DNA of 64,000 nt from Rhodospirillaceae bacterium (GTDB lineage: Bacteria; Pseudomonadota; Alphaproteobacteria; Bin65): positions 1 to 64,000 of the forward strand of contig WTGH01000039.1 of NCBI GenBank assembly GCA_011523655.1, in the 5' to 3' direction. Positions 13,078 through 61,954 of this stretch are shown one piece after another. A program made the position numbers and the translations under genes. The number at the start of each line of letters is the position of its first letter. Position 1 is the stretch's first letter. The notes below the pieces were generated by a model. The model saw only the letters and a program-made list of their open reading frames with translations. It was not told where the DNA came from and made no database searches.

Positions 13078-13449
13078 ATGCCGACGATCAATCAGCTGAT
13101 CCGCAAGCCACGCAAGGCGCCGGTCAAGCGGAACAAGGTGCCGGCCATGGAATCCTGCCCGCAGAAGCGGGGGGTGTGCACCCGCGTCTACACGACGACG
13201 CCGAAGAAACCGAACTCCGCATTGCGCAAGGTCGCGCGCGTCCGCCTCACCAACGGTTTCGAGGTAACCTGCTACATCCCCGGAGAGGGCCATAACCTGC
13301 AAGAGCATTCGGTGGTGATGATCCGGGGTGGCCGTGTCAAGGACCTGCCGGGCGTCCGCTACCACATCATCCGCGGCACGCTGGACACCCACGGCGTCGC
13401 CGACCGCCGCCAGCGCCGCTCGAAATACGGCGCCAAACGGCCGAAGTAA
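13078..13449 (+). CDS. rpsL: 30S ribosomal protein S12
   Basis: [51 protein letters not shown]. Confidence 0.98.
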
Positions 13450-13530
13450 CCGCAAAGCCGCAGCGAAACTACTCGATTAGTGCCGGCTTACCGCGGAGCG
13501 GCGGGCCGGTCCCAGAGGAAAGACCGACCC

Positions 13531-14001
13531 ATGTCCCGTCGCCACCGCGCAGAAAAACGCGAGATTTTGCCGGACGCCAAGTATCACGACGTGGTGCTGA
13601 CCAAATTCATGAACAGCATCATGAAGGACGGCAAGAAGTCGGTTGCCGAGAATATCGTCTATGGTGCGCTCGACCGCGTGGAGAGCCGGATGCGTACCGA
13701 GCCGCTGCGCGTGTTCCACGATGCGCTTGACAATGTCCGCCCGGCCATCGAGGTGCGTTCGCGTCGTGTCGGCGGAGCGACCTACCAGGTGCCGGTGGAG
13801 GTCCGCCAGGACCGCGCCCAGGCGTTGGCGATCCGCTGGCTGATCGCAGCGGCCCGGGCCCGGGCCGAACGCACGATGGCCGAGCGGCTGTCGGCCGAAC
13901 TCGTGGAGGCGGCGGAAAATCGCGGCGCCGCCGTCAAGAAGCGCGAGGATACGCATCGGATGGCCGAGGCCAACCGCGCGTTCTCGCATTATCGCTGGTA
14001 A
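13531..14001 (+). CDS. rpsG: 30S ribosomal protein S7
   Basis: [20 protein letters not shown]... Confidence 0.97.
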
Positions 14002-48753: not shown

Positions 48754-49601
48754 CAATTCGCGGCTAGGAAATAGGGAAACGTTCCGTAATCGAAAATAAT
48801 GCTTTGTTCTTAAGGAGTTTTTTGTTCCCCATTATTCGAGTGTGGTTTGCTCTCTGTACGTGCGTAACCATTTCGCAACCGGATTCGTTCAATACCGGGG
48901 TATTGCTGTGGGGCGCTGTGACCGGAAACTACCCTTACCAATGATATAGCGAATGAGCCGCGAGAAGGAAACTTATCGTGAATCCCGGACAGCGGCCCCA
49001 TGGTCGGAAATCCGGCCGCCTGTCGTGCCGCCGGCCACAAAGCTGGCGAATTTTCCGAAACATTATGTTAGTATACTGTAATCGGTGAATAAAACTGAGA
49101 AATTTGTAGTCTGTAAGATGGGATTTGCAGGACCAATCATCAAACCGAGTTCAGGAATTTTCAATATTGAGGTGCGTGGATGGCGGTATTGGGCGGCAAA
49201 TTGCCGTGTTCGTTCAGCTACCGATAACAGTTCCGTTAAGCCGCGGATGCTCGGGATGCGCGCGGAACCGATAAACCGATTTTGGCTGATACCGGCTAGC
49301 GCAGTGTTTCACTGTCGCCCCGGTCTTGGCCATCACGGACTAATCGAGCGGTTACGATGGTGCCGTAGTTGCTTGCTGTAAGCGGGCGCACAGGGTCGGA
49401 CATCAGCGGCTTGCAGCGGTAAGCCCATCCACTTGCCGAACGTGACGCTAGCCGACGAAACCTAAAATCACAGGTTGTTATTCGGCGCGGCCTACAAATC
49501 CCTTGGCTCGTAGCGATCACAACCGTTTAGCTTGGATATCAGCGTCCAACAGCAACGCCAAAGGACAGTCGAGCCGCTGCACGTCGCATTCAGATGTCGA
49601 T

Positions 49602-49651
49602 TTGACATCGACCTGGCATTATCCGATATTCCTTACCGGCCGTTCGTTCAA
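49602..49651 (+). promoter_or_regulatory. P1: promoter + TetR-type operator upstream of thiolase-like gene
   Basis: TTGACA-N17-GATATT then CTTACCGGCCGTTCGTTCAA (49632-49651). Confidence 0.7.
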
Positions 49652-49746
49652 TTGGCGTGGCGCTGATTTTGCGAAAGTCGCGCCAGATTTCCGAAAACCG
49701 AAACGCCCCACAGAGAATTTGCCCGGACACGAACGGTGCAGACGAA

Positions 49747-50928
49747 GTGACCCGACATCGATCACGCCCTCCAGCGATTGTCGCTGCCAGCCAGATTGCG
49801 CCAGGGCGATTTCCGACGCTCGACGGCCTCCAGCTCCTTGAACGGATCGTGGAGCGGTTTCTCAGCGACTGGCCCGACCTTTCCCCAGGGATGATCGATG
49901 GTCTCTTGGCCCCACCCGCATACATTGCCGGTGCAGGCGGCACTAACACTTACATTCATCAGCGCCTTGCAGGCCGTCTAGGCATAAAGCCCCGGTTCGC
50001 CGAAACGCTCAACGCGGGCGCCACCTATGGCGCGATGGTTTCCAGGGCGGTTCTGGCGATAGAGGCGGGCGTATGCAATGCAGTGCTGTGTGTAGGGGTA
50101 GGCAAGTTTCCCTCGGTGCATGCGGACGGAGCTGCAATTTCGACAATGGTCGGGGATCCCGAATTCGAACTCTGTTACGGTGCATCGATTCCGGCCATGT
50201 ACGCCATGATTGCGCAACGGTTCATGCACCAACGCGGGACGACTCGCGATCAGCTAAGCGCTGTGGCCGTCAGCGCCCGTGAGTGGGCCCTTGCCAATGC
50301 CGATGCGTACATGTTCGGACGGGGCCCGTTGGCTCCGGCCGATATTCCTGCATCGCGACCGATCGCTTCGCCGTTCCACAAGTTCGACTGTTCCGTGCCC
50401 TGCGAGGGTGGCGGCGCACTTCTTATCGTCAGGGGGGCGTCTGTGGACCGGGGTTCGTCAAGAGCTGCCTATATCGTCGGCATCGGCGAATCGCACTACC
50501 ATGCGCCGGTCAGCGAGATCGCGGAACCTAGCGAGACCGGTCTGGCAGAATGCGCGCAACGGGCTTTCCAAATGTCCGGCCTTTCGCCGGAGCAAATCAG
50601 TATCGCCCAACTGTACGATCCGTTTACGATCACACCGATAATTCAGGTCGAAGAATGCGGCTTTGTCGAACCCGGCGGCGGCGGCGAGCTTTTTGAAAGC
50701 GGTGCCGCCGGGCCGGGCGGCTCGTTGCCGTTGAACACCTTCGGCGGCCTATTGTCGTTCGGACACACGGGCGATTCCTCCGGCATATCCTTCTTCGTCG
50801 AAGCTGCACAGCAGATCATGGGCCTTGCCGGAAAGCGGCAAGTCGACAATGTCGATACTGCATTGGTTCACACTTACGGGGGAATCCTTACCGACCATGT
50901 CACGGTTATCCTTGGACGCGAGCCGTAG
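49747..50928 (+). CDS. Thiolase-fold (SCP-x/lipid-transfer-like) protein apparently lacking the nucleophilic Cys
   Basis: Thiolase family sequence; NAGATYGAM where CxSG expected; QLYDPFTITPIIQVEECGF; GTG start proposed. Confidence 0.82.
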   Translation: MTRHRSRPPAIVAASQIAPGRFPTLDGLQLLERIVERFLSDWPDLSPGMIDGLLAPPAYIAGAGGTNTYIHQRLAGRLGIKPRFAETLNAGATYGAMVSRAVLAIEAGVCNAVLCVGVGKFPSVHADGAAISTMVGDPEFELCYGASIPAMYAMIAQRFMHQRGTTRDQLSAVAVSAREWALANADAYMFGRGPLAPADIPASRPIASPFHKFDCSVPCEGGGALLIVRGASVDRGSSRAAYIVGIGESHYHAPVSEIAEPSETGLAECAQRAFQMSGLSPEQISIAQLYDPFTITPIIQVEECGFVEPGGGGELFESGAAGPGGSLPLNTFGGLLSFGHTGDSSGISFFVEAAQQIMGLAGKRQVDNVDTALVHTYGGILTDHVTVILGREP

Positions 50929-51364
50929 AATACGGCCCACGCCGTTTGCGACCGATATCAGCCGCCCCTATTGGAATGCCGCACGGCAAGGCGTGCTTCG
51001 CCTGCAGCGTTGCCGGGACTGCGGCACGGCAATCCACTATCCAAGGCGATGGTGTCCGAATTGCTGGTCGACCGAACTCGACCATTTCGACGCGCGTGGC
51101 ACCGGTGTCGTCATCAGCTATACGATCGTGCACCAGTCGCCTTTCGAAGCCTTCGACCCCCATACGCCCTATGTGCTGGCCATCGTTCAGCTTGACGAAG
51201 GGCCAACAATGCTCACGAACATAATCGGCCCGGGCGCGAAGAAGGTGGCGATTGATGACTTGGTTCGGGTTCGCTTCGAGCACCGGAACGGGTGGACGGT
51301 GGTGCCGCAATTCGAGCGCGTACAAATGAAACGTCAACAGGGGACTCCCGGCTCTTCAAAATAA
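50897..51364 (+). CDS. DUF35/OB-fold zinc-ribbon protein (thiolase partner)
   Basis: CRDCG...RRWCPNC zinc ribbon followed by OB-fold; overlaps thiolase-like gene by 32 nt. Confidence 0.88.
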   Translation: MSRLSLDASRRIRPTPFATDISRPYWNAARQGVLRLQRCRDCGTAIHYPRRWCPNCWSTELDHFDARGTGVVISYTIVHQSPFEAFDPHTPYVLAIVQLDEGPTMLTNIIGPGAKKVAIDDLVRVRFEHRNGWTVVPQFERVQMKRQQGTPGSSK

Positions 51365-51629
51365 CGCCCCGGCTGCGCATCACTTTCGGTCTGTCAGTTG
51401 CAGGATGTTCCGAACCGGTTGAAGAAGACGAGGTGGCCTTGCACGACATCGCTGCAGACAAGACACAATCAAGGACGATGGCGCCGCATGCTGCATTGAT
51501 CCCCCTTACACAGGCGCCCGGACAACCAGAGTATCGCATCCGGTCCGCTCCGGTTCTCCTGCGGAGTATTCGGTCACCGGATCGGTCTTGTCGCGACGGG
51601 AACTCCCGGGCAACTTTCATCCCAGTGCC

Positions 51630-51680
51630 TTGACAATGAGGGTGCGATCGACTAGGCTAACTGAACGAACAGTCGGTCAG
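51630..51680 (+). promoter_or_regulatory. P2: promoter + TetR-type operator upstream of GST gene
   Basis: TTGACA-N17-TAGGCT then CTGAACGAACAGTCGGTCAG (51661-51680). Confidence 0.75.
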
Positions 51681-51852
51681 GTTACATCGTCGAGCCTACG
51701 CGCGAATCCGGCCGGATAGTCGGGTAAGTTGGGGGGGACAAGCTAAGCGGCACATGTGTGCAGAACGCAAGTTGCGAAGTCCTGTCAAACTGCACGGTAC
51801 AGACTGTTGCGCTTGCGTCTGAGGAGGCCGCTGATCGTATGGAACTGTTCCA

Positions 51853-52536
51853 ATGAAAAAACCCAAGTTGTATATGTTCTCAATTTCGCCGTCGTGCCAG
51901 AGGGTTTTTGCTACGCTCGCCAACAAAGGCATTGAATACGATAGCGTTGAAATCGATATCAGCGAGCGCGCGCGCCCCGAAGGCTTCGAGAAAATATCGC
52001 CGTTCGGCAAGGTGCCGCTTCTGGAGCACAATGGCCGGGCCATACTTGAGTCCGCCAATATCATCCAATACATCGACGAGGTATGGCCAGACCCACCCAT
52101 GATGCCCTCGGACCCGATGGCGAGGGCTTATGCGAGACAGTGGATTCAGTTCGCCGACCGGGAATTGTTCGACCGCGACGCTCAATTCGTTCATGTCGAA
52201 CCCGACCGTAAAAGAAAACTCGAAATTTGCAGCGATTTGTTTGATTCATTGAGGTTCCTGGATCGAGAATTGAACGGCAAAAAGGCACTCTTCCTGGGCG
52301 ATGATCTTTCGTTGGTGGATTGTATGCTGGCGCCGACGTTGGCCAATGCTCCTGTCTGGTCCGATCTAACCAAAGACAGGAAGTATGAAACCTACGAGAA
52401 TGTTAAGTCTTACACAGATCGCCTTCGGCGAAATCCGGTTCTGGAACAAACCGTCTTCTGCGTACCCATCGAAGTGTACGAGAGTTTCTTTAAGGCCGTT
52501 TTGGTAGACGGAATGACATTCCCGCCAAAAAAATGA
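51853..52536 (+). CDS. Glutathione S-transferase family protein
   Basis: ISPSCQRVFATLANKGIEYDSVEIDI...SPFGKVPLLEHNGRAILESANIIQYID. Confidence 0.88.
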   Translation: MKKPKLYMFSISPSCQRVFATLANKGIEYDSVEIDISERARPEGFEKISPFGKVPLLEHNGRAILESANIIQYIDEVWPDPPMMPSDPMARAYARQWIQFADRELFDRDAQFVHVEPDRKRKLEICSDLFDSLRFLDRELNGKKALFLGDDLSLVDCMLAPTLANAPVWSDLTKDRKYETYENVKSYTDRLRRNPVLEQTVFCVPIEVYESFFKAVLVDGMTFPPKK

Positions 52537-52573
52537 CATTCCTCCCCGCTCGATTCGATCGCTAATGCCATTG

Positions 52574-52641
52574 CCTGTGTCCGTACGAGGGATAGAGTGC
52601 CGCGACAAAGAAATGCCGGTAGAGTCGCTAACGGACACAGG
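52574..52641. repeat. 11-bp perfect inverted repeat in GST-ligase spacer
   Basis: CCTGTGTCCGT (52574-52584) / ACGGACACAGG (52631-52641). Confidence 0.6.
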
Positions 52642-52896
52642 AGTTTCGAAACGAATCGACATAAGCGGCAGCGTAATCGAGCGAGGAACGTCCCGAAGAC
52701 GATCAAGAGTTGCTGCTCTCGGTCCGGGCCCGGTCCATGTCAACGGTGATCGATCCCGCCCTGATGGCGTATGCAGGTGGCGGCGCCGGCTGACCGGTCC
52801 CAGACCGGACGTTATGGGAGGAGTGTGCCCTGCCTGTACCTGAGTGAATTGGGCACCGACGCAAACAGCGGTGAAACCTACATGGAGACCTGAGAC

Positions 52897-54468
52897 ATGC
52901 TGCGCGATCAACTTCGCCGATGCGCCCGACACACGCCGGACAAGGTGGCCTATTTTCAGGGCGACCGGTCGATCACCTGGTCGGCCATCTACGACCGCGT
53001 GGAGCGTCTGTCCGGCGCGCTACAGTCGTTGGGGCTCCGCCCCGGCGACCGGATCGCACTCCTTTCAAGGGAATGCATCGAGGTTTACGAGCACTTCTTC
53101 GCCTGCATGATGCTGGGTGCCGTTCGGGTTGGCGTCAACTGGCGCTACAGCCCGCGGGAGATGTTGCATGTGATTCGCAACAGCGACGTCAGCCACTGCA
53201 TCGTTACCAGCGATTGTCAGGAACTGATGGACAGCATCGAGGACGAAGTGAAAGCTGGCGGCTGCACGCTGATCGGTCTCGGCGACGGCCACAAATACGA
53301 ACTCGACTATGAAGACCTGATTTCTGCCGAACATACTTTCGATCCGCCCGACTTCGACGAAAACACGCCCCTGTTGCATACCTACACGTCCGGAGTCACC
53401 GCCGAACCCAAGGGCGTTGTGTTGTCGCACAAATCGATCCGGCTCGAGATCGGCTATGCACCCGACTATTTCGGTATCACCGCGAACGACATTTACCTGA
53501 TGCCGGTGCAGTCGGCCTGGGTTGCGATCGTCGGCGGCGCCTTCGGGCTACACAACACCTGCACGACCGTCATCGCCGACGGCTCGTTCGAGATCGGCGC
53601 TTACATGAAAGACATGGAGCGGCGGCGCTGCACGATTGCCCTGATGGCGCCGGCAATGTTCCCCTGGGTCATCCAAAGGGCGAAGACGGGGGACTACAAC
53701 CTCTCGGCCCTGCGCCGTGTCGTTTATGGCTCGGCACCGTCGACTCCCGCCGCCATCCGGGAAATGTCGGACACTCTGAATGCCGAAATGTTGCAACTCT
53801 ACGGCATGAGCGAGGTCGTTGCCTGGGCCTGTTTTCTGCAGCCGGACGACCACAAGCGCGGCCTGGCGGGGGAAGAGCACATCCTGCGTGCGTCGGGGCG
53901 CTTCGCCACTTTTGTCGACTACAAGATTTGCGACGACGACGGCAACACGTTGCCGACCGGAGAGACCGGTGTGATTCACCTCAAGGGCGAGACGGTCATG
54001 CTCGGGTACCTGAACCTGCCCGAGGAGACGGCCGAAGTGCTGGACGAGGAGGGCTGGCTGAAGACCAACGACATCGGCCGGGTCGATGAGAACGGCTTCG
54101 TTTATGTACTCGACCGGCGCAAATTCCTGATCAATACCGGCGGCGTCAACGTCTTTCCAGCCAGCGTAGAGGCGGTGATCTCGGAATATCCCAATGTGCT
54201 CGAATCGGCCGTGGTTGGCGTGCCACACCCGGATTGGGGCGAAGCGGTCGTCGCCGCGGTTGTATTGCGCCCGGAAGTCGACATGGCGCAGGAAGACCTC
54301 AGGCGTGAGGTTTTCGAGCATTGCTCGAAAAACCTCAGCCGGCAGGAATGCCCAAAGCATGTCGAGATCGTGAAGGAACTGCCGAGGACAATTACCGCCA
54401 AGCTGCACAAGCGGGCTCTTCAGCAATACTTCAGAGAGAATGTGACTCTGCCATGGGAGCGGAACTGA
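52897..54468 (+). CDS. AMP-dependent acyl-CoA synthetase/ligase
   Basis: ANL family: YTSGVTAEPKGVVLSHKS, YGMSEV, GWLKTNDIGRVDENGFVYVLDRRKFLINTGGVNVFP. Confidence 0.92.
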   Translation: MLRDQLRRCARHTPDKVAYFQGDRSITWSAIYDRVERLSGALQSLGLRPGDRIALLSRECIEVYEHFFACMMLGAVRVGVNWRYSPREMLHVIRNSDVSHCIVTSDCQELMDSIEDEVKAGGCTLIGLGDGHKYELDYEDLISAEHTFDPPDFDENTPLLHTYTSGVTAEPKGVVLSHKSIRLEIGYAPDYFGITANDIYLMPVQSAWVAIVGGAFGLHNTCTTVIADGSFEIGAYMKDMERRRCTIALMAPAMFPWVIQRAKTGDYNLSALRRVVYGSAPSTPAAIREMSDTLNAEMLQLYGMSEVVAWACFLQPDDHKRGLAGEEHILRASGRFATFVDYKICDDDGNTLPTGETGVIHLKGETVMLGYLNLPEETAEVLDEEGWLKTNDIGRVDENGFVYVLDRRKFLINTGGVNVFPASVEAVISEYPNVLESAVVGVPHPDWGEAVVAAVVLRPEVDMAQEDLRREVFEHCSKNLSRQECPKHVEIVKELPRTITAKLHKRALQQYFRENVTLPWERN

Positions 54469-54493
54469 TCGTTTTCCGCGCCGGCCACTCACG

Positions 54494-55333
54494 GTGACGC
54501 CCGACGAGAACACGGTTCGGGTTCCGGTCGGACACGGGCTGACGCTTGCCGCAGAATCGTTCGGAAAGGAAGGGAACCCGGTCGCGCTGTTGGGCCATGG
54601 CGGCGGCCAGTGCCGACACGTCTGGGCGGAGACGGCGAAACGCCTCGCCACCTCTGGCTACCGCGTCTTTACCCTGGATTCCCGCGGACATGGAGACAGC
54701 GACTGGACCAGACCGCCGCGATACGAGCCGGACGATTTCGCGCGCGACGTCGAGGCGTTAGCGCAGTGGCGCCTGGAGGCGGATGCTTGCCCGCCGCACT
54801 ATGTCGGTGCGTCGCTTTCGGGGATCGCCGGCTTGATCGCTGCCGGCTTGTTCAATGAGGCTGCGTTCGCGTCGCTCACCCTCGTCGACGTGACGCCGAC
54901 ATACAAGGTCGACGCGCTCGCGAAGGCCCGGAACCTCTTCGTCCGAACGCTGAAGCATGGTTTCGCCACGGAAACCGAAGCCGCGCGTGCCATCGGCGGC
55001 GAACCGGGAGGCGTTCAACTGAGCCGGGTCCTGCGCAAGGATACCGATGGCCGCTGGCATTGGCGGTGGGACCCGGCCTTTGCAGAACGCATCCACCATG
55101 ACGAGCGGACACAGCGCTTGTGCAAGGCAGCAGCTGCGGCGCTTTCAATTCCCGTTCATCTGATTCGCGCCGGCCGGAGCGAATTTGTCGACGATGAAGC
55201 CGCCGAGGCGTTCCTCGAGTTGACGCCGCATCTTCAGGTGACCGTCCTTACGGAGGCCCGACATGTCGTGACCGGCGACCCGCATGGCATCTATGCGGAC
55301 GCCATTCTAAAGTTCCTTGAGGCTTCCATCTAG
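54494..55333 (+). CDS. Alpha/beta hydrolase
   Basis: LLGHGGGQCRHVWAETAKRLATSGYRVFTLDSRGHGDSD, VGASLSG nucleophile elbow. Confidence 0.9.
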   Translation: MTPDENTVRVPVGHGLTLAAESFGKEGNPVALLGHGGGQCRHVWAETAKRLATSGYRVFTLDSRGHGDSDWTRPPRYEPDDFARDVEALAQWRLEADACPPHYVGASLSGIAGLIAAGLFNEAAFASLTLVDVTPTYKVDALAKARNLFVRTLKHGFATETEAARAIGGEPGGVQLSRVLRKDTDGRWHWRWDPAFAERIHHDERTQRLCKAAAAALSIPVHLIRAGRSEFVDDEAAEAFLELTPHLQVTVLTEARHVVTGDPHGIYADAILKFLEASI

Positions 55334-55413
55334 CGCCGGTGACCGATCCCGATTGGCCTTGCTATAGTTCGCGGCTCTCGGCTAATGGTCTGTCAAATCT
55401 GACCGAAGCTGGC

Positions 55414-55433
55414 GTGACCGACCGGTCGCGCGC
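55414..55433. promoter_or_regulatory. Weaker operator-like site upstream of the tetR gene (possible autoregulation)
   Basis: GTGACCGACCGGTCGCGCGC, 13/20 to the shared operator with perfect TGACCGAC half-site. Confidence 0.35.
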
Positions 55434-55505
55434 CATTCGCGAAGCAGAAGTCAGGGGCTCCATCGCAATAATGGCAATTCGGTTCCCTTCCCCCGAGAAT
55501 CCAGA

Positions 55506-56138
55506 ATGACCCAGAATGCAAAATTACGGCGCAAAGGGCGGAGCACCCACAATATCGAATCCCTGACGCAGATCAGCATCGATCTGTTCATGAACCGGGG
55601 TTACGACGCGACCTCCGTCGAAGAGATCGCCAAGGCCGCTGGAATCACGAAATCCGCAATCTATTACCATGTGGCCAACAAGGAGGAGCTCCTGCGGCGC
55701 GCGATCAGCAACGCTGTCGGAAAACTCTTCGAAATCCTCGAGGAGCCAGCGGCGAAAGAGGGCACGCCTTTGACCCGGCTGGAGTATATTTTCCGACGCT
55801 TGGTCGAAGTCGAGTTCGATCACTTGAAAGAGATAGCGTTGTTGCTTCGGGTGCGTGGCGGGAGCAAGACGGAGCGCTGGGCGCTCGAGAAACGTCGCGA
55901 GTTCGACCGTCACGTCCAAAAATTGATCGTTCTGGCCCAGGATGCCGGCGAGATTCGGGACGATTTGGATGCGCTCGCGATCGACCGCCTGGTCTTCGGC
56001 ATGCTCACCTGGATCCCCGAGTGGTACTATATCGGGCATAGAATCCCGCCCGGTGTCCTTGTGGACGCAGCCCTTGCCCTCATTTTCGAAGGCATCCGTC
56101 AGCCTGACGCCGCGAATGGACGATCTTCAGCGAATTGA
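55506..56138 (+). CDS. TetR/AcrR family transcriptional regulator
   Basis: FMNRGYDATSVEEIAKAAGITKSAIYYHVANKEELLRRAI HTH. Confidence 0.95.
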   Translation: MTQNAKLRRKGRSTHNIESLTQISIDLFMNRGYDATSVEEIAKAAGITKSAIYYHVANKEELLRRAISNAVGKLFEILEEPAAKEGTPLTRLEYIFRRLVEVEFDHLKEIALLLRVRGGSKTERWALEKRREFDRHVQKLIVLAQDAGEIRDDLDALAIDRLVFGMLTWIPEWYYIGHRIPPGVLVDAALALIFEGIRQPDAANGRSSAN

Positions 56139-56312
56139 AAGTTCAATTGGTCTGGAAGCTGATTTGCCGACCGATTTTCCAGAACAGCGGCAGGCTAATC
56201 TGTCTGGCAATGGTGGCCGCCAACAACATGCACTGATCCGGCGCGCTTCCGCCCCGGCGGTGGCCGAGAAAATGTCCTGAGCACCCTGACGGCTCGAACC
56301 GCAGCCTGCCGG

Positions 56313-56362
56313 TTGCAATCGATTCGTGGATACGGCATACTACTAACCGAATGTTCGGTCGG
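56313..56362 (+). promoter_or_regulatory. P3: promoter + TetR-type operator upstream of flavoprotein/P450 genes
   Basis: TTGCAA-N17-CATACT then CTAACCGAATGTTCGGTCGG (56343-56362). Confidence 0.65.
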
Positions 56363-56383
56363 TAAGAGAAATGCAGGCCCCAA

Positions 56384-57562
56384 TTGGCTGTCGCCGTTAC
56401 AACCACGAAGTGTTTGACACTGCACGACGAACTCGTCGGACGGGCAAGAGAACTGGCGCCAAAGATTGCCCGAAAGGCCCGCGCGATCGAGGAACGCCGG
56501 ACACCCGATCCCGAAATCCTTCAAGATCTGATCGACGCCGAACTGATGCAGCTCTTCGTTCCGCGGAGGTGGGGCGGACATGAAGCGAGCCTGCACACCC
56601 ACCGTGAGGTTGTGGAGGCCATAAGCGCCGCGTGCATGTCGACAGGCTGGATCGCGGCATTTTACATCGGCCACAACTGTCTGGCGCTGCGCTTTCCCGA
56701 AGCGGCGCAAGAAGAGTTTTTCTGCGACCGGCCCTTCGGGCTCATTCCGATCACCAATGCGCCGACACTGTCGGCAACGCGCGTTGACGGTGGCTGGATC
56801 GTGTCGGGCAAATCGGCATGGAGCTCCGGCATCATGGATGCGGACTGGGTGTGCCTGGCCGGCAAGGACGACACCAGTGCCGTCTACACCTTCGCCTTCC
56901 CGATCGACGATGTCGAAATCGACGATGTCTGGCACTACGCCGGCATGTCCGGCACCGGAAGCAACACTGCTGTCGTCTCGGATGCGTTCGTGCCCGAACA
57001 CCGCGCCGTCTCGGCGCTGGATTTCGCAACCGGGCGCCTGGCAGCGGAACTGTACGACAACCCTCTGCTCAGTGCGCCTCTGATGTCCTTCATACTTTGC
57101 GAGGTGATGCCGGTTTACAGCGGCGGCCTTCGCGGCGCAGCGGACGCGTTCGAGACCATTGTCCGCAACCGGACGGCAGCCTACGCCAAATCGCCCATGA
57201 GCGAAAACCCCCGCTCGCACATCCAGCTCGGGGAAGCGCTGGTCAATGCATCCATGGCGGAACGGCTGGTCCGCGACCTTTATGCCCAGGTCGAGCAGGG
57301 CATTGAGCAACGCAGCATCGGCATTTCGGAACGAGTTGCGCTGAAGGCCCAGTCGGCGTTCATTGCCGAGCATTGTCGGCTGGCGGTTAACGAGATGGCG
57401 CATTGTGCCGGATCGTCGAATTTTCATCTCGATTCGCCGATCCAACGCTATTTCCGGGATATCAATACGCTGGCCACCCACGTCTTCTGCGAGTGGGATT
57501 CTAGCCGCGAGCTGCTCGGCAGGGACCGTCTGGGCCTGGAGCCAAATCATCCCATCGTTTGA
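56384..57562 (+). CDS. Acyl-CoA dehydrogenase-fold flavin-dependent monooxygenase (HsaA/group D-like)
   Basis: VPRRWGGHEASLHTHREVVEAISAACMSTGWIAAFY...; TTG start uncertain. Confidence 0.85.
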   Translation: MAVAVTTTKCLTLHDELVGRARELAPKIARKARAIEERRTPDPEILQDLIDAELMQLFVPRRWGGHEASLHTHREVVEAISAACMSTGWIAAFYIGHNCLALRFPEAAQEEFFCDRPFGLIPITNAPTLSATRVDGGWIVSGKSAWSSGIMDADWVCLAGKDDTSAVYTFAFPIDDVEIDDVWHYAGMSGTGSNTAVVSDAFVPEHRAVSALDFATGRLAAELYDNPLLSAPLMSFILCEVMPVYSGGLRGAADAFETIVRNRTAAYAKSPMSENPRSHIQLGEALVNASMAERLVRDLYAQVEQGIEQRSIGISERVALKAQSAFIAEHCRLAVNEMAHCAGSSNFHLDSPIQRYFRDINTLATHVFCEWDSSRELLGRDRLGLEPNHPIV

Positions 57563-57628
57563 AATCTGTCCGGGGAGCGGATTCGCATGGTCTGCCTGAC
57601 GCGGACGGTGGAGTAAGGGAGGCGTCCG

Positions 57629-58921
57629 ATGCCCGGGAATCTGGAGGTGCTGGTCAAGCCTCTCGTAAATTGCGAGCCCGATGCGCTCGCCTCGCCCTGG
57701 CACATCTTCGACGCGATCGTCGAGCGAGACCCGCCGATTGTCTACAGCGACAGTCTGGAAGCATGGATCGTCGCCGGCCGACAATATGTGGTCGAGATAC
57801 TCGCCGACGCCAAGACCTGGTCCAATTGCTCCGTCGGCTCGAGCCGCAAGGCGAACGAACGCTTCTTCAGGTTGATGCGCGAGCTGCGCCAGGAACCTGA
57901 AATGGCGCCCATCGTCGAAGAGTTCACCAGCATCCGCCGCGACGGCGCAGTGCTTGTTACCGCCGACCCGCCGGAACATGTGCGCCAACGCCGGGCGTTC
58001 AGCGACCTGTTCCGGCCCAAGCGCATTCAGAGAATGACGCCGGCGATTCAGGCCAAATCGGACGAACTGGTGGCCAAGGTGCGGCCCCTCGGCTGCGCCG
58101 ATTGGGTTGCGGACTATTCCATCCAGTTACCGATCGCGATCCTCGCGCGCAATTTTGCCGTCCCGGAATCGGACGGGACAAAGTTCAAGCGGTGGAGCGA
58201 CATACTTGGCGGCCGAATCGGCCGCGTAAACATTACCAGGGAAGAGATCAGGGACCTGATTTTTTCGGAGAAGGAGTTCAGGAACTACTTCACGCCGCTT
58301 CTGGAGGAACGGGGGCGCGACCCTCAGGACGATCTGATATCCGACATTGCGACGGCGGAGGTCGACGGCGAGCCGCTCAGTAACGCCGAGAAACTGGAGG
58401 CTTGCCAGCAATTCGTCATCGCCGGGCACGAAACCACCTCGTCAATCATTGCCAACATCGGCCGGCGGATTGCGAGCGACCCCGATCTTCGCGACGGGCT
58501 TGCCGCGGACCGCAGCCTGATCCCGGGTTTCGTTGAAGAGGTTCTGCGCCTGGACCCACCCGTCCTCGGCTTCTTCCGCATGGCGAAATGCGATACCGAG
58601 GTCGCTGGCACAATGATCGCCGAAGGCGAGTACGTCTGGGTGGCCTATGCAGGCGGCAATCGCGATCCCAAGGGTTGCCCGAGGTCGCTTGAATTCGACA
58701 TGACGCGCCATCCCAACCGGCACCTGTCGTTCGGATATGGCGAGCACGCCTGCCTGGGCGCCGGGCTGGCCCGCGCGCAGGCCGTCATTGCGACGAACGC
58801 GCTGGTCGACTTGCCCAACCTGGCGCTGGCGTCGGACCATGTTGACGAGTATTCCGACAGCTACATCCTCAGAGGGCTGAAGTCGCTCAAGATCACCTTC
58901 GATCGGCAGCCGGTCGCGTGA
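57629..58921 (+). CDS. Cytochrome P450
   Basis: AGHETTSS I-helix, heme ligand motif FGYGEHACLGAGLAR. Confidence 0.96.
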   Translation: MPGNLEVLVKPLVNCEPDALASPWHIFDAIVERDPPIVYSDSLEAWIVAGRQYVVEILADAKTWSNCSVGSSRKANERFFRLMRELRQEPEMAPIVEEFTSIRRDGAVLVTADPPEHVRQRRAFSDLFRPKRIQRMTPAIQAKSDELVAKVRPLGCADWVADYSIQLPIAILARNFAVPESDGTKFKRWSDILGGRIGRVNITREEIRDLIFSEKEFRNYFTPLLEERGRDPQDDLISDIATAEVDGEPLSNAEKLEACQQFVIAGHETTSSIIANIGRRIASDPDLRDGLAADRSLIPGFVEEVLRLDPPVLGFFRMAKCDTEVAGTMIAEGEYVWVAYAGGNRDPKGCPRSLEFDMTRHPNRHLSFGYGEHACLGAGLARAQAVIATNALVDLPNLALASDHVDEYSDSYILRGLKSLKITFDRQPVA

Positions 58922-59010
58922 CGGGATACTATGCGTCGGCAGGGGAAGAACCGCCGGAATTGTACAGAACTTTGCGGCCATCTGGAGTGGGACCGCAGCC
59001 GTGGCATTTC

Positions 59011-59063
59011 TTGACTTGGCGGTGTACGCAAGGCAGAATTTCCCTTAACGAACAGTCGGTCAG
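59011..59063 (+). promoter_or_regulatory. P4: promoter + TetR-type operator upstream of VOC gene
   Basis: TTGACT-N17-CAGAAT then CTTAACGAACAGTCGGTCAG (59044-59063). Confidence 0.75.
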
Positions 59064-59126
59064 GAAATGTCGACACCTTTCTTCGACCGGGGTCTTTTGG
59101 CCAGCCCGACAATTCGGAGAGTAACG

Positions 59127-59648
59127 ATGCAGCCATACCGCAACCCGATCCAGAGCGTGAATCACGTGGCCTATCGATGCCGGGATGCAGAGGAGACGCG
59201 GCACTTTTACGAGGACGTTCTTGGCCTGCGGTTGTCATCCACTCTTTGGCTCAAGGCGACCCTCACGGGGCGCCCCGTCAATCTGCTGCATATTTTCTTC
59301 GAAATGGACGACAACTCTTTCGTCGCATTTTTCGACATACCCGATGAATTCGACGAGGCCCTGTTCCCCGAGCGGTCGGACTTCGACCTGCATGTGGCGA
59401 TGAACGTCGCGGACATGGAGACACTCCTTTCCTACAAGGAACGGCTGACAGAGGCCGGTCATCGCGTCCGCGGCCCGTCGGACCACGGTTTCCTCCAGTC
59501 CATCTACACCCATGACCCGAACGGCTATGTCGTCGAACTGACACTGAAGACCGACAAGTATGACGAGATCATGGGCGAGCACGTCGAGAACGCTCACGAG
59601 ATCCTGAAGGAGTGGCAGAAGGCAAAAGGACGTGTAGCTGCGGAATGA
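59127..59648 (+). CDS. VOC-superfamily (glyoxalase/extradiol dioxygenase-like) protein
   Basis: SVNHVAYRCRDAEETRHFYEDVLGLRL...DLHVAM...YVVELT metal-ligand pattern. Confidence 0.88.
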   Translation: MQPYRNPIQSVNHVAYRCRDAEETRHFYEDVLGLRLSSTLWLKATLTGRPVNLLHIFFEMDDNSFVAFFDIPDEFDEALFPERSDFDLHVAMNVADMETLLSYKERLTEAGHRVRGPSDHGFLQSIYTHDPNGYVVELTLKTDKYDEIMGEHVENAHEILKEWQKAKGRVAAE

Positions 59649-59826
59649 CCTGGCTCTCCCGGCAGAAGGCGATCTGCCGGAAATGTCCGGGCTGTGCATG
59701 TTCTTGATTTCCTCGCCGTTCCGGTGAACGGAATGACCTCCCCGTCGGAGGGGTCACGCCCCGGGATGACTCAAATGGCCCGTGTCGCACCAGCGCTTTC
59801 CCGGGCGGCAAGACAGGTGGTTCGAG

Positions 59827-61152
59827 ATGTTCGACCCAGAGGTCGAGGCACGTTCCCTCGACGATCAGTTCAAGCGTGACGATACAGCCTTTAGGCAGCA
59901 GATCTCCTATCTCTTCGAGCGCTCGCCGTTCTACGCGCGGAAGCTGAAGAAGGCTGGTTTCAACGACGCGGAAAGCGTCGGTGGCATCGATAGGATTGCC
60001 GAGCTGCCGGCCACCGACAAAGACGAAATCCGCGAGTCACAGCAACTGGCGCCGCCTTTCGGCGAGCATCTGGCTGCCGATCCGGCAGATATCATGCGGA
60101 TATTCTCGACCAGCGGCACCACCGGCACACCCACCTACATTGCGGTGACCGGGAACGATATCGAGCGCTGGGCAACCAACACGGCGCGTTCCTACTACGC
60201 TTCGGGCTTCCGACCCGGCCAGCGGCTGGTGGTCACTTTCAATGCCGGGCCCTTCGTGGCCGGCGGTGCCTATTTCGGTTTCGACAAGTTGGGCACGACC
60301 GTCATTCCGATCGGCCTCGGCAACACCGAGCGCTTGGTCAGCGCCATGCAGAATCTTGGCGCCGGAAATGCCGGGCTCTCCAGCACGCCGTCCTATGCGT
60401 TGCATCTGATCGATTGGTGCGCCGAGCACGGCATAGACACGAAGTCGCTCGGCCTCAGGAACCTGTCCGTCGCGGGCGAGCCGGGCGGTGCCGATCCGCT
60501 AATTCGCGAGCGGGTCGAGGCGGCCTTCGCTTGCGTAATGCGGGAAGCGATGGGCATCGGCGACATCTCCACCTCGATCTGGGGAGAATGCGAGCATGGC
60601 GGCGGCATGCATTTCTCAGCGCGGGACAACACGTTCGTCGAACTGGTCGACCCGGAGACGCGAGAGCCGGTTCCCTGGGAAGACGGAGCGGAGGGCGAAC
60701 TCGTCTACACGGCGCTTGAACGCGAGGCCATGCCCCTGCTGCGCCTGAACAGCCGGGACCATGTCGTCGTTAACGCCGAGCCTTGTCCATGCGGCAGAAC
60801 CAGCCCCCGGATTCGCTGCATCGGCAGGACCGACGACATGCTGATCGTCCGTGGCGTCAATCTGTTCCCAACGGCGATCGGCGCGCTGCTGAAAGAGTTT
60901 CTGCCCGAGGTCGGCGGTTTCTTCCGCATCGTACCAAAAAAACGCGGTGTGGCACAGTCGCCGCCTCTGCCGGTCTCGGTGGAACTCGGTCCGGATGTCC
61001 CCGCCGCACCGGAGGGGCTGGCCGAACGGATCGTTACCGCGATCCGCTCGAAGCTTGTGGTGACGACGGAGGTAAAACTGGTCCCCTACGGTTCCTTGCC
61101 TCGTGATGAATACAAGGCCAAGCTCGTCGACTATTCACAGGCCAAAGATTAG
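59827..61152 (+). CDS. Phenylacetate-CoA ligase (PaaK)-like adenylate-forming enzyme
   Basis: IFSTSGTTGTPTYIAVTGNDIERW; RCIGRTDDMLIVRGVNLFPTAI. Confidence 0.9.
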   Translation: MFDPEVEARSLDDQFKRDDTAFRQQISYLFERSPFYARKLKKAGFNDAESVGGIDRIAELPATDKDEIRESQQLAPPFGEHLAADPADIMRIFSTSGTTGTPTYIAVTGNDIERWATNTARSYYASGFRPGQRLVVTFNAGPFVAGGAYFGFDKLGTTVIPIGLGNTERLVSAMQNLGAGNAGLSSTPSYALHLIDWCAEHGIDTKSLGLRNLSVAGEPGGADPLIRERVEAAFACVMREAMGIGDISTSIWGECEHGGGMHFSARDNTFVELVDPETREPVPWEDGAEGELVYTALEREAMPLLRLNSRDHVVVNAEPCPCGRTSPRIRCIGRTDDMLIVRGVNLFPTAIGALLKEFLPEVGGFFRIVPKKRGVAQSPPLPVSVELGPDVPAAPEGLAERIVTAIRSKLVVTTEVKLVPYGSLPRDEYKAKLVDYSQAKD

Positions 61153-61186
61153 CGGTAACACTCGAAACAGCGAAAGAACCGGCGCC

Positions 61187-61954
61187 ATGGCACAGAAATC
61201 CGGACCCGTGACGCACCTCTGCTTTACCGACACCAACCGGATACTGGTGCGCGGCAAGGATCTCTGCAGCGACTTGGTCGGCAAGATGTCGTTCACCGAG
61301 ATGATGCTGTTCCACTTGATGGGAACGCCGCCGACGTCGCAGCAGGTGGCCGTGGTTGATGCCGTCCTGATCACCATCATGGAGCATGGCCTGACACCTT
61401 CCGCCATTGCCGCGCGCCAGACATATTTCGGCGCGCCGGAGGCGCTTCAGGGCGCACTGGCAGCGGGCATCCTCGGTGTCGGCTCCCGGTTTGCAGGCAC
61501 GTCCGGCGATTGTGCAATATTGCTGTCCGAAATCGTCGACGCTCCCGAAGACCGGAAGAAGGAGGTCGCGCGTTCGATAGCAGAGCGGTTTCGCGCCGCC
61601 GGGAAGTTCGTGCCCGGTTACGGTCACCCGGTGCACAAGAACGGCGATCCGCGTGTCGCACGCCTGGTCGAGATTGCGACCGAACAGGAGGTCGAGGGCG
61701 CGTATATCGAGGCCATGTACATGCTGGGCGGCGCCGTCAACGCAGCAACGGGAAAGAAATTGGTGATCAATGCCTCCGCCGCGATGGGCGCGGTAATGGC
61801 CGAAGTGGACATTCCGCCGGACATCATGCGGGGTCTCGTGATCGTCTCCCGCGCGGCCGGCCTGGTCGGCCACCTGCTGGAGGAGATGCAGCAGCCGGCA
61901 TCCCAGAGAATTTGGGATTTGGTCGAGCACGGCGTGCCCTACGAGGAAGTCTGA
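61187..61954 (+). CDS. Citryl-CoA lyase / citrate synthase-like protein
   Basis: TPSAIAARQTYFGAPEALQGALAAGILGVGSRFAGT, PGYGHPVHKNGDPRVARL. Confidence 0.85.
   Translation: MAQKSGPVTHLCFTDTNRILVRGKDLCSDLVGKMSFTEMMLFHLMGTPPTSQQVAVVDAVLITIMEHGLTPSAIAARQTYFGAPEALQGALAAGILGVGSRFAGTSGDCAILLSEIVDAPEDRKKEVARSIAERFRAAGKFVPGYGHPVHKNGDPRVARLVEIATEQEVEGAYIEAMYMLGGAVNAATGKKLVINASAAMGAVMAEVDIPPDIMRGLVIVSRAAGLVGHLLEEMQQPASQRIWDLVEHGVPYEEV

Follow-up and report, generated by a model that had tools for sequence, protein, structure and literature searches.

We analysed a 64,000-nt stretch of contig WTGH01000039.1 from a Rhodospirillaceae bacterium (hereafter the window), in which two overlapping genes on the forward strand encode a thiolase-fold protein and a DUF35 protein (Table 1). 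The start of the larger gene is a prediction, and its reading frame stays open upstream as far as 49657. Its product matched Pfam Thiolase_C_1 (4.8e-46), while Thiolase_N scored 23.3 bits, slightly below the cut-off of 26.4. NCBIfam thiolase-type models fell well short of their cut-offs (for the top one, PRK06158, 262 versus 421 bits), and the sub-cut-off models that matched are named thiolase or acetyl-CoA acetyltransferase. In the PDB, 9myr_A ranked first (5.6e-51) and 4u4e_A second (3e-48), followed by true thiolases. From chain descriptions and motif numbering we infer that 9MYR is CtSal, the bile-acid aldolase of Comamonas testosteroni, with the DUF35 domain of CtShy; its motif numbering matches that of PMC12329534 (Tyr302, Cys304 and Gln352) at an offset of 24. 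An AlphaFold model of the thiolase-like protein alone, built from a five-sequence alignment, had a mean pLDDT of 47.5, too low for geometry.

The earlier note had described a 32-nt overlap with a gene for a CxxC...CxxC zinc ribbon plus OB fold, and this description was borne out: the second gene begins with the ATG at 50897, before the thiolase-like gene has reached the end of its stop codon at 50928, and Pfam identified zf-ChsH2 (1.2e-15) and OB_ChsH2_C (8.8e-20). The closest solved chains were 6ok1_B and then 9myr_B. The zinc ribbon is intact (C39-x2-C42-x10-C53-x2-C56) and, by the definitions in PMC12329534, of the Cys4 type. Whereas the Cys3His1 domain of CtShy is part of a fusion with a MaoC hydratase, the window partner stands alone, and no MaoC domain was found fused to it by Pfam or adjoining it among the neighbouring genes.

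Table 1. Genes, codons and motifs of the window (feature, position, strand, remarks).
Thiolase-fold CoA-aldolase-like protein, 393 aa	49747..50928	+	GTG start, TAG stop; Pfam and PDB matches
Gly91 codon	50017..50019	+	Thiolase nucleophilic-Cys column; aligned with CtSal Gly89 and TcLtp2 Gly83
Tyr290 codon, predicted catalytic base	50614..50616	+	Aligned with CtSal Tyr302 and TcLtp2 Tyr294; replaces the HDxF His
Pro292 codon	50620..50622	+	CtSal counterpart is the essential Cys304; TcLtp2 counterpart is His296
His340 codon, predicted general acid	50764..50766	+	Aligned with TcLtp2 Tyr344, CtSal Gln352 and the thiolase GHP His; role inferred
DUF35 partner, zinc ribbon + OB fold, 155 aa	50897..51364	+	Best PDB match 6ok1_B (ChsH2 DUF35), 1.2e-19
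Cys4 zinc-ribbon motif C-x2-C-x10-C-x2-C	51011..51064	+	From sequence; canonical type, not the Cys3His1 of Shy
GST-family protein	51853..52536	+	Same cluster; conserved in sister genome
AMP-binding acyl-CoA ligase	52897..54468	+	Family models; likely CoA-thioester supply
HsaA/HPAH-C2-like flavin monooxygenase, oxygenase component	56384..57562	+	Family matches
Cytochrome P450	57629..58921	+	Family matches
Citrate-synthase-like protein	61103-61951		Above NCBIfam citryl-CoA lyase cut-off (PRK06224.1-5)

About 100 relatives were aligned with six solved references in MAFFT, and this sequence-based, not structural, alignment placed Gly91 in the column of the nucleophilic Cys of the true thiolases 6ESQ, 7PXP and 7YVY. 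The earlier note had named a Cys at the nucleophile position of a structural alignment as a refutation; the sequence-level counterpart of this check showed none. This agrees with its proposal that the catalytic Cys is absent, and the motif it had pointed to, NAGATYGA, does lie at 50011-50034 in the frame of the 49747 gene (residues 89-96, Gly91 within). Similarly, QLYDPFT (residues 288-294) replaces HDxF as proposed, although the range of 50611-50625 given for it covers LYDPF only and the full motif spans 50608-50628. The window protein therefore lacks two hallmarks of SCP2-type thiolases, the Cys of CxSG (Gly91) and the His of HDxF (Tyr290), while their GHP-motif His is present as His340 in GHTG, without the Pro. 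Tyr290, Asp291 and Gly333-334 were the same as in active aldolases, and further pairs aligned with CtSal were Tyr152/Tyr165, Arg204/Arg216 and Gly379/Gly391 (window/CtSal).

In CtSal, Gly89 stands in place of the thiolase Cys, Tyr302 was found by mutagenesis to be needed for activity, and Cys304 is indispensable (PMC12329534). In TcLtp2, the steroid aldolase of Thermomonospora curvata, Tyr294 is the base and Tyr344 the acid, as given in PMC12329534. By homology to these two mutated enzymes, we predict with high confidence that Tyr290 is the catalytic base. Compared with CtSal-CtShy(DUF35), the window pair has in common the thiolase fold, the Gly, the base Tyr (YDxF/Y) and the DUF35 partner, but Cys304 (of the YDCY motif) is replaced by Pro292, Gln352 by His340 and the oxyanion-hole Gln161 by Pro149. 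Compared with TcLtp2-ChsH2(DUF35) (6OK1), it has in common the Gly, the base Tyr and a Cys4-type DUF35, but YDHF is replaced by YDPF and the acid Tyr344 by His340. Given an aldolase-like base and missing nucleophile, and the absence of both Cys304 and Tyr344, the proton donor would differ from those of both studied enzymes. Since Pro292 cannot replace Cys304 and Tyr344 has no equivalent, His340 is the likeliest acid, a role that on the aligned residues we rate at slightly less than an even chance.

Because the relatives were chosen for their resemblance to the window protein, the following proportions are not natural ones; the sequences are also not independent. The nucleophile column held Gly in 88/88 Tyr-type sequences, the window protein included, and Cys in all 19 others; the two positions thus varied jointly in every sequence. 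The Gly/Tyr proteins, with CtSal, TcLtp2 and IpfD among them, formed one clade (100/100) in a 49-sequence tree, and a same-strand DUF35 gene adjoined 81 of 82 Gly/Tyr loci versus 3 of 16 Cys-type loci. As judged from the sampled sequences, the missing Cys is thus the rule across a large clade and not peculiar to the 49747-50928 gene. Column 340 of the Tyr class (n=88) held His in 75 sequences, Gln in nine and Tyr in four. The commonest motif patterns, in a tally that leaves out the second database copy of the window protein's twin, were YDAF/H (39), YDSF/H (26), YDCF/H (6) and YDCY/Q (5); YDPF was restricted to the window protein and this near-identical twin among the sampled sequences. Matches at E 1e-40 or better occurred in 87 of 385 genomes from the taxonomic class and 33 of 399 from the phylum, and the gene itself was present in two of the seven genomes searched at genus level. 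A viral-contig scan found no further relatives.

Within the tree, the window protein lay outside every Cys-bearing branch and grouped (100/99) with plasmid-borne proteins of Cupriavidus necator N-1 (48.6% identity), Sphingobium herbicidovorans (46.9%) and Mycolicibacterium chubuense NBB4 (39.3%); no characterised member of this sub-clade was found. AU tests rejected forcing it together with Sal (p 0.009), Ltp2 (p 0.0005) or 4U4E (p 0.002), each thus in a separate clade or sub-clade, while forcing it with IpfD, which forms a very long branch, gave p 0.24. The Sphaerobacter 'thiolase' 4U4E has the same Tyr/x/His arrangement as the window protein (Gly80, Tyr279 and His329) but carries Ser281 where the window protein has Pro292. 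The SCP2-type and archaeal/BbsAB thiolases share the fold, and several of them the DUF35 association, but they possess the nucleophilic Cys and HDxF, both of which are absent from the window protein.

The genes that follow the pair on this strand encode a GST, an AMP-binding CoA ligase, an alpha/beta hydrolase, a TetR regulator, a flavin monooxygenase, a P450, a VOC protein, a PaaK-like ligase, a citryl-CoA-lyase-family protein and a branched-chain-type ABC transporter. The CoA ligase matched broad family models only, with no solved structure at E 1e-60, and the P450 and flavin monooxygenase matches were likewise to broad families. No obvious flavin reductase gene adjoins the monooxygenase, and the citrate-synthase-like gene sits in the catabolic cluster with the PaaK-like ligase. 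The cluster contains no MaoC or crotonase hydratase gene, in which the Sal and Ltp2 operons differ from it; no steroid operon was seen among the neighbouring genes, and tblastn with the Rieske alpha subunit of pIBU218 as query found no Rieske dioxygenase in the window.

The neighbourhood resembles the ibuprofen ipf cluster more closely than a steroid operon. On pIBU218, the ipf genes encode an ABC substrate-binding protein, a CoA ligase, IpfE (DUF35), IpfD, a ring-hydroxylating dioxygenase, a GST and a ring-cleavage enzyme; the likeness lies in the neighbouring CoA ligase, GST, ABC substrate-binding protein and ring-cleavage dioxygenase. IpfD/IpfE (L044:13640-14827 and 13229-13627), the ibuprofen-CoA retro-aldolase pair of sphingomonads, are of the Gly/Tyr type and provide a genetic precedent for a retro-aldolase/DUF35 pair outside steroids. 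In the ibuprofen pathway, the beta-hydroxyl comes from an oxygenase instead of a hydratase, and cleavage by the retro-aldolase yields propionyl-CoA and a catechol (PMC9195938). However, IpfD has YDAF with Tyr342 in place of the His and is 33% identical to the window protein over the C-terminal 234 residues only, and the ipf cluster has a Rieske dioxygenase where the window cluster has a P450 and a flavin monooxygenase. By analogy, we conjecture that the window cluster might work on the ipf principle, with the P450 or the flavin monooxygenase as the oxygenase. Most of the zinc-ribbon Cys seem to be missing from IpfE, so that zinc may be dispensable in the IpfD/IpfE pair. The same plasmid also carries a close Ltp2 homologue (L044:939-2093; 475 bits to TcLtp2 6OK1, YDHF/Tyr type), accompanied by DUF35, enoyl-CoA hydratase and CoA-transferase genes.

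The nearest structure is CtSal, the Gly/Tyr signature is present, CtSal and TcLtp2 belong to the same clade and a DUF35 neighbour is near-obligate in it; on these grounds, the 49747/50897 pair is probably a thiolase-fold acyl-CoA retro-aldolase with its DUF35 subunit. Points against this reading are that no characterised Tyr/x/His enzyme, non-steroid members included, was found in the open-licence literature, that the Cys304 on which CtSal depends has no counterpart, which leaves the acid residue conjectural, that Gln161 has become Pro149, and that no hydratase gene lies nearby. The earlier note had likewise proposed a retro-aldolase in place of a thiolase, which the evidence supports; its further proposal of a tertiary beta-hydroxyacyl-CoA substrate is not singled out, because tertiary alcohols are the substrates of Ltp2 and, according to the pathway in PMC9195938, of IpfD, and CtSal uses a secondary one (PMC12329534). 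Homology to 9MYR and 6OK1 suggests that both proteins would assemble into an alpha-beta-beta-alpha heterotetramer. The substrate would be a beta-hydroxyacyl-CoA, presumably a CoA ester from the ligase at 52897 that gains its hydroxyl from one of the nearby oxygenases or from a hydratase whose gene lies elsewhere. Tyr290 would take the beta-hydroxyl proton, the C-alpha/C-beta bond would break and a ketone, aldehyde or aromatic product would leave; the acyl-CoA enolate would then be re-protonated, most likely by His340, to acetyl-CoA or propionyl-CoA. Thiolysis would not be expected of a protein without the nucleophilic Cys. We tentatively suggest, as a possibility slightly less likely than not, that this is a third catalytic arrangement, in which a Tyr/His pair retains the GHP His of thiolases as proton donor in non-steroid catabolism.

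Several other readings were weighed against the retro-aldolase. A steroid side-chain aldolase would have the fold, the base and the partner family in common with the window pair, and the cluster does contain an HsaA-like monooxygenase. However, the acid residues differ, no MaoC accompanies the DUF35 gene and the surroundings are not those of a steroid operon, which makes this reading very improbable; on the AU tests and the residues, we rejected orthology with Ltp2 or Sal. Another reading is different enolate chemistry on acyl-CoA, since the active-site residues could stabilise any such enolate: forward aldol synthesis, hydrolytic C-C cleavage or the decarboxylation of a CoA ester of malonyl type. 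A very slow decarboxylation of malonyl-CoA has been reported for TbSLP (PMC12329534). Such chemistry is unlikely here, given that CtSal does not decarboxylate malonyl-CoA (PMC12329534) and that the cluster, with its CoA ligase, oxygenases and uptake transporter, looks catabolic. A true thiolase with another nucleophile would fit the names of the family models, all of which scored under their cut-offs, but is scarcely credible for a protein that lacks both the Cys and the HDxF His and falls outside all Cys-bearing branches.

The loss of the nucleophile and the Pro beside the base, found in no other sampled lineage with a YD motif, could also suggest an inactive or scaffold thiolase relic. Comparison with a sister genome (L006, contig JAJEGH010000013.1) argues strongly against it: the thiolase-like protein is 98.7% identical there despite a synonymous divergence of about 0.21, with a dN/dS of 0.033 (0.18 for the DUF35 gene), so the thiolase-like gene is under purifying selection and is not a product of chance or decay. 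Together with the residues kept as in active aldolases, this leaves a relic extremely improbable, and we rejected it on the dN/dS value.

The retro-aldolase/DUF35 kind of enzyme is already known, and the arrangement of Gly, Tyr-Asp-Pro-Phe and His is unlike that of any characterised member found. If the third arrangement is real, it would be the commonest among the sampled relatives, whereas studies have so far dealt with the Tyr/Cys and Tyr/Tyr types only, and many 'acetyl-CoA acetyltransferases' in the databases would be mislabelled aldolases. If the retro-aldolase reading is true, a large and widespread set of 'thiolase' or 'acetyl-CoA acetyltransferase' genes adjoining DUF35 would perform retro-aldol C-C cleavage, and the genome-based reading of aromatic, drug and terpenoid catabolic pathways would change. 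The surprise lies more in the size of this mis-annotated class than in the 49747-50928 gene itself. A simple re-annotation rule would be Gly at the nucleophile position, YDxF and a DUF35 neighbour, and the Tyr/His prediction can be tested with two point mutants.

The gene order of the cluster is the same in the sister genome. DNA similarity between the two begins abruptly at 49359 of the window and spans 49359-61073 (L006:9612-21175), and the sequences upstream differ. In the sister genome, a tyrosine-recombinase frame (Pfam Phage_integrase, 6.7e-18) lies within about 1 kb of the similarity boundary. The catabolic cluster looks like a mobile insert. The genome of the window itself holds two further Gly/Tyr plus DUF35 pairs. 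The first (L003, G000:C6:24863-25777) belongs to the YDAF/His type and has P450 and Rieske-like genes as neighbours, and the second (L002, G000:C6:279017-279964) has an unusual YDDY/Gln active site and sits on a very long branch.
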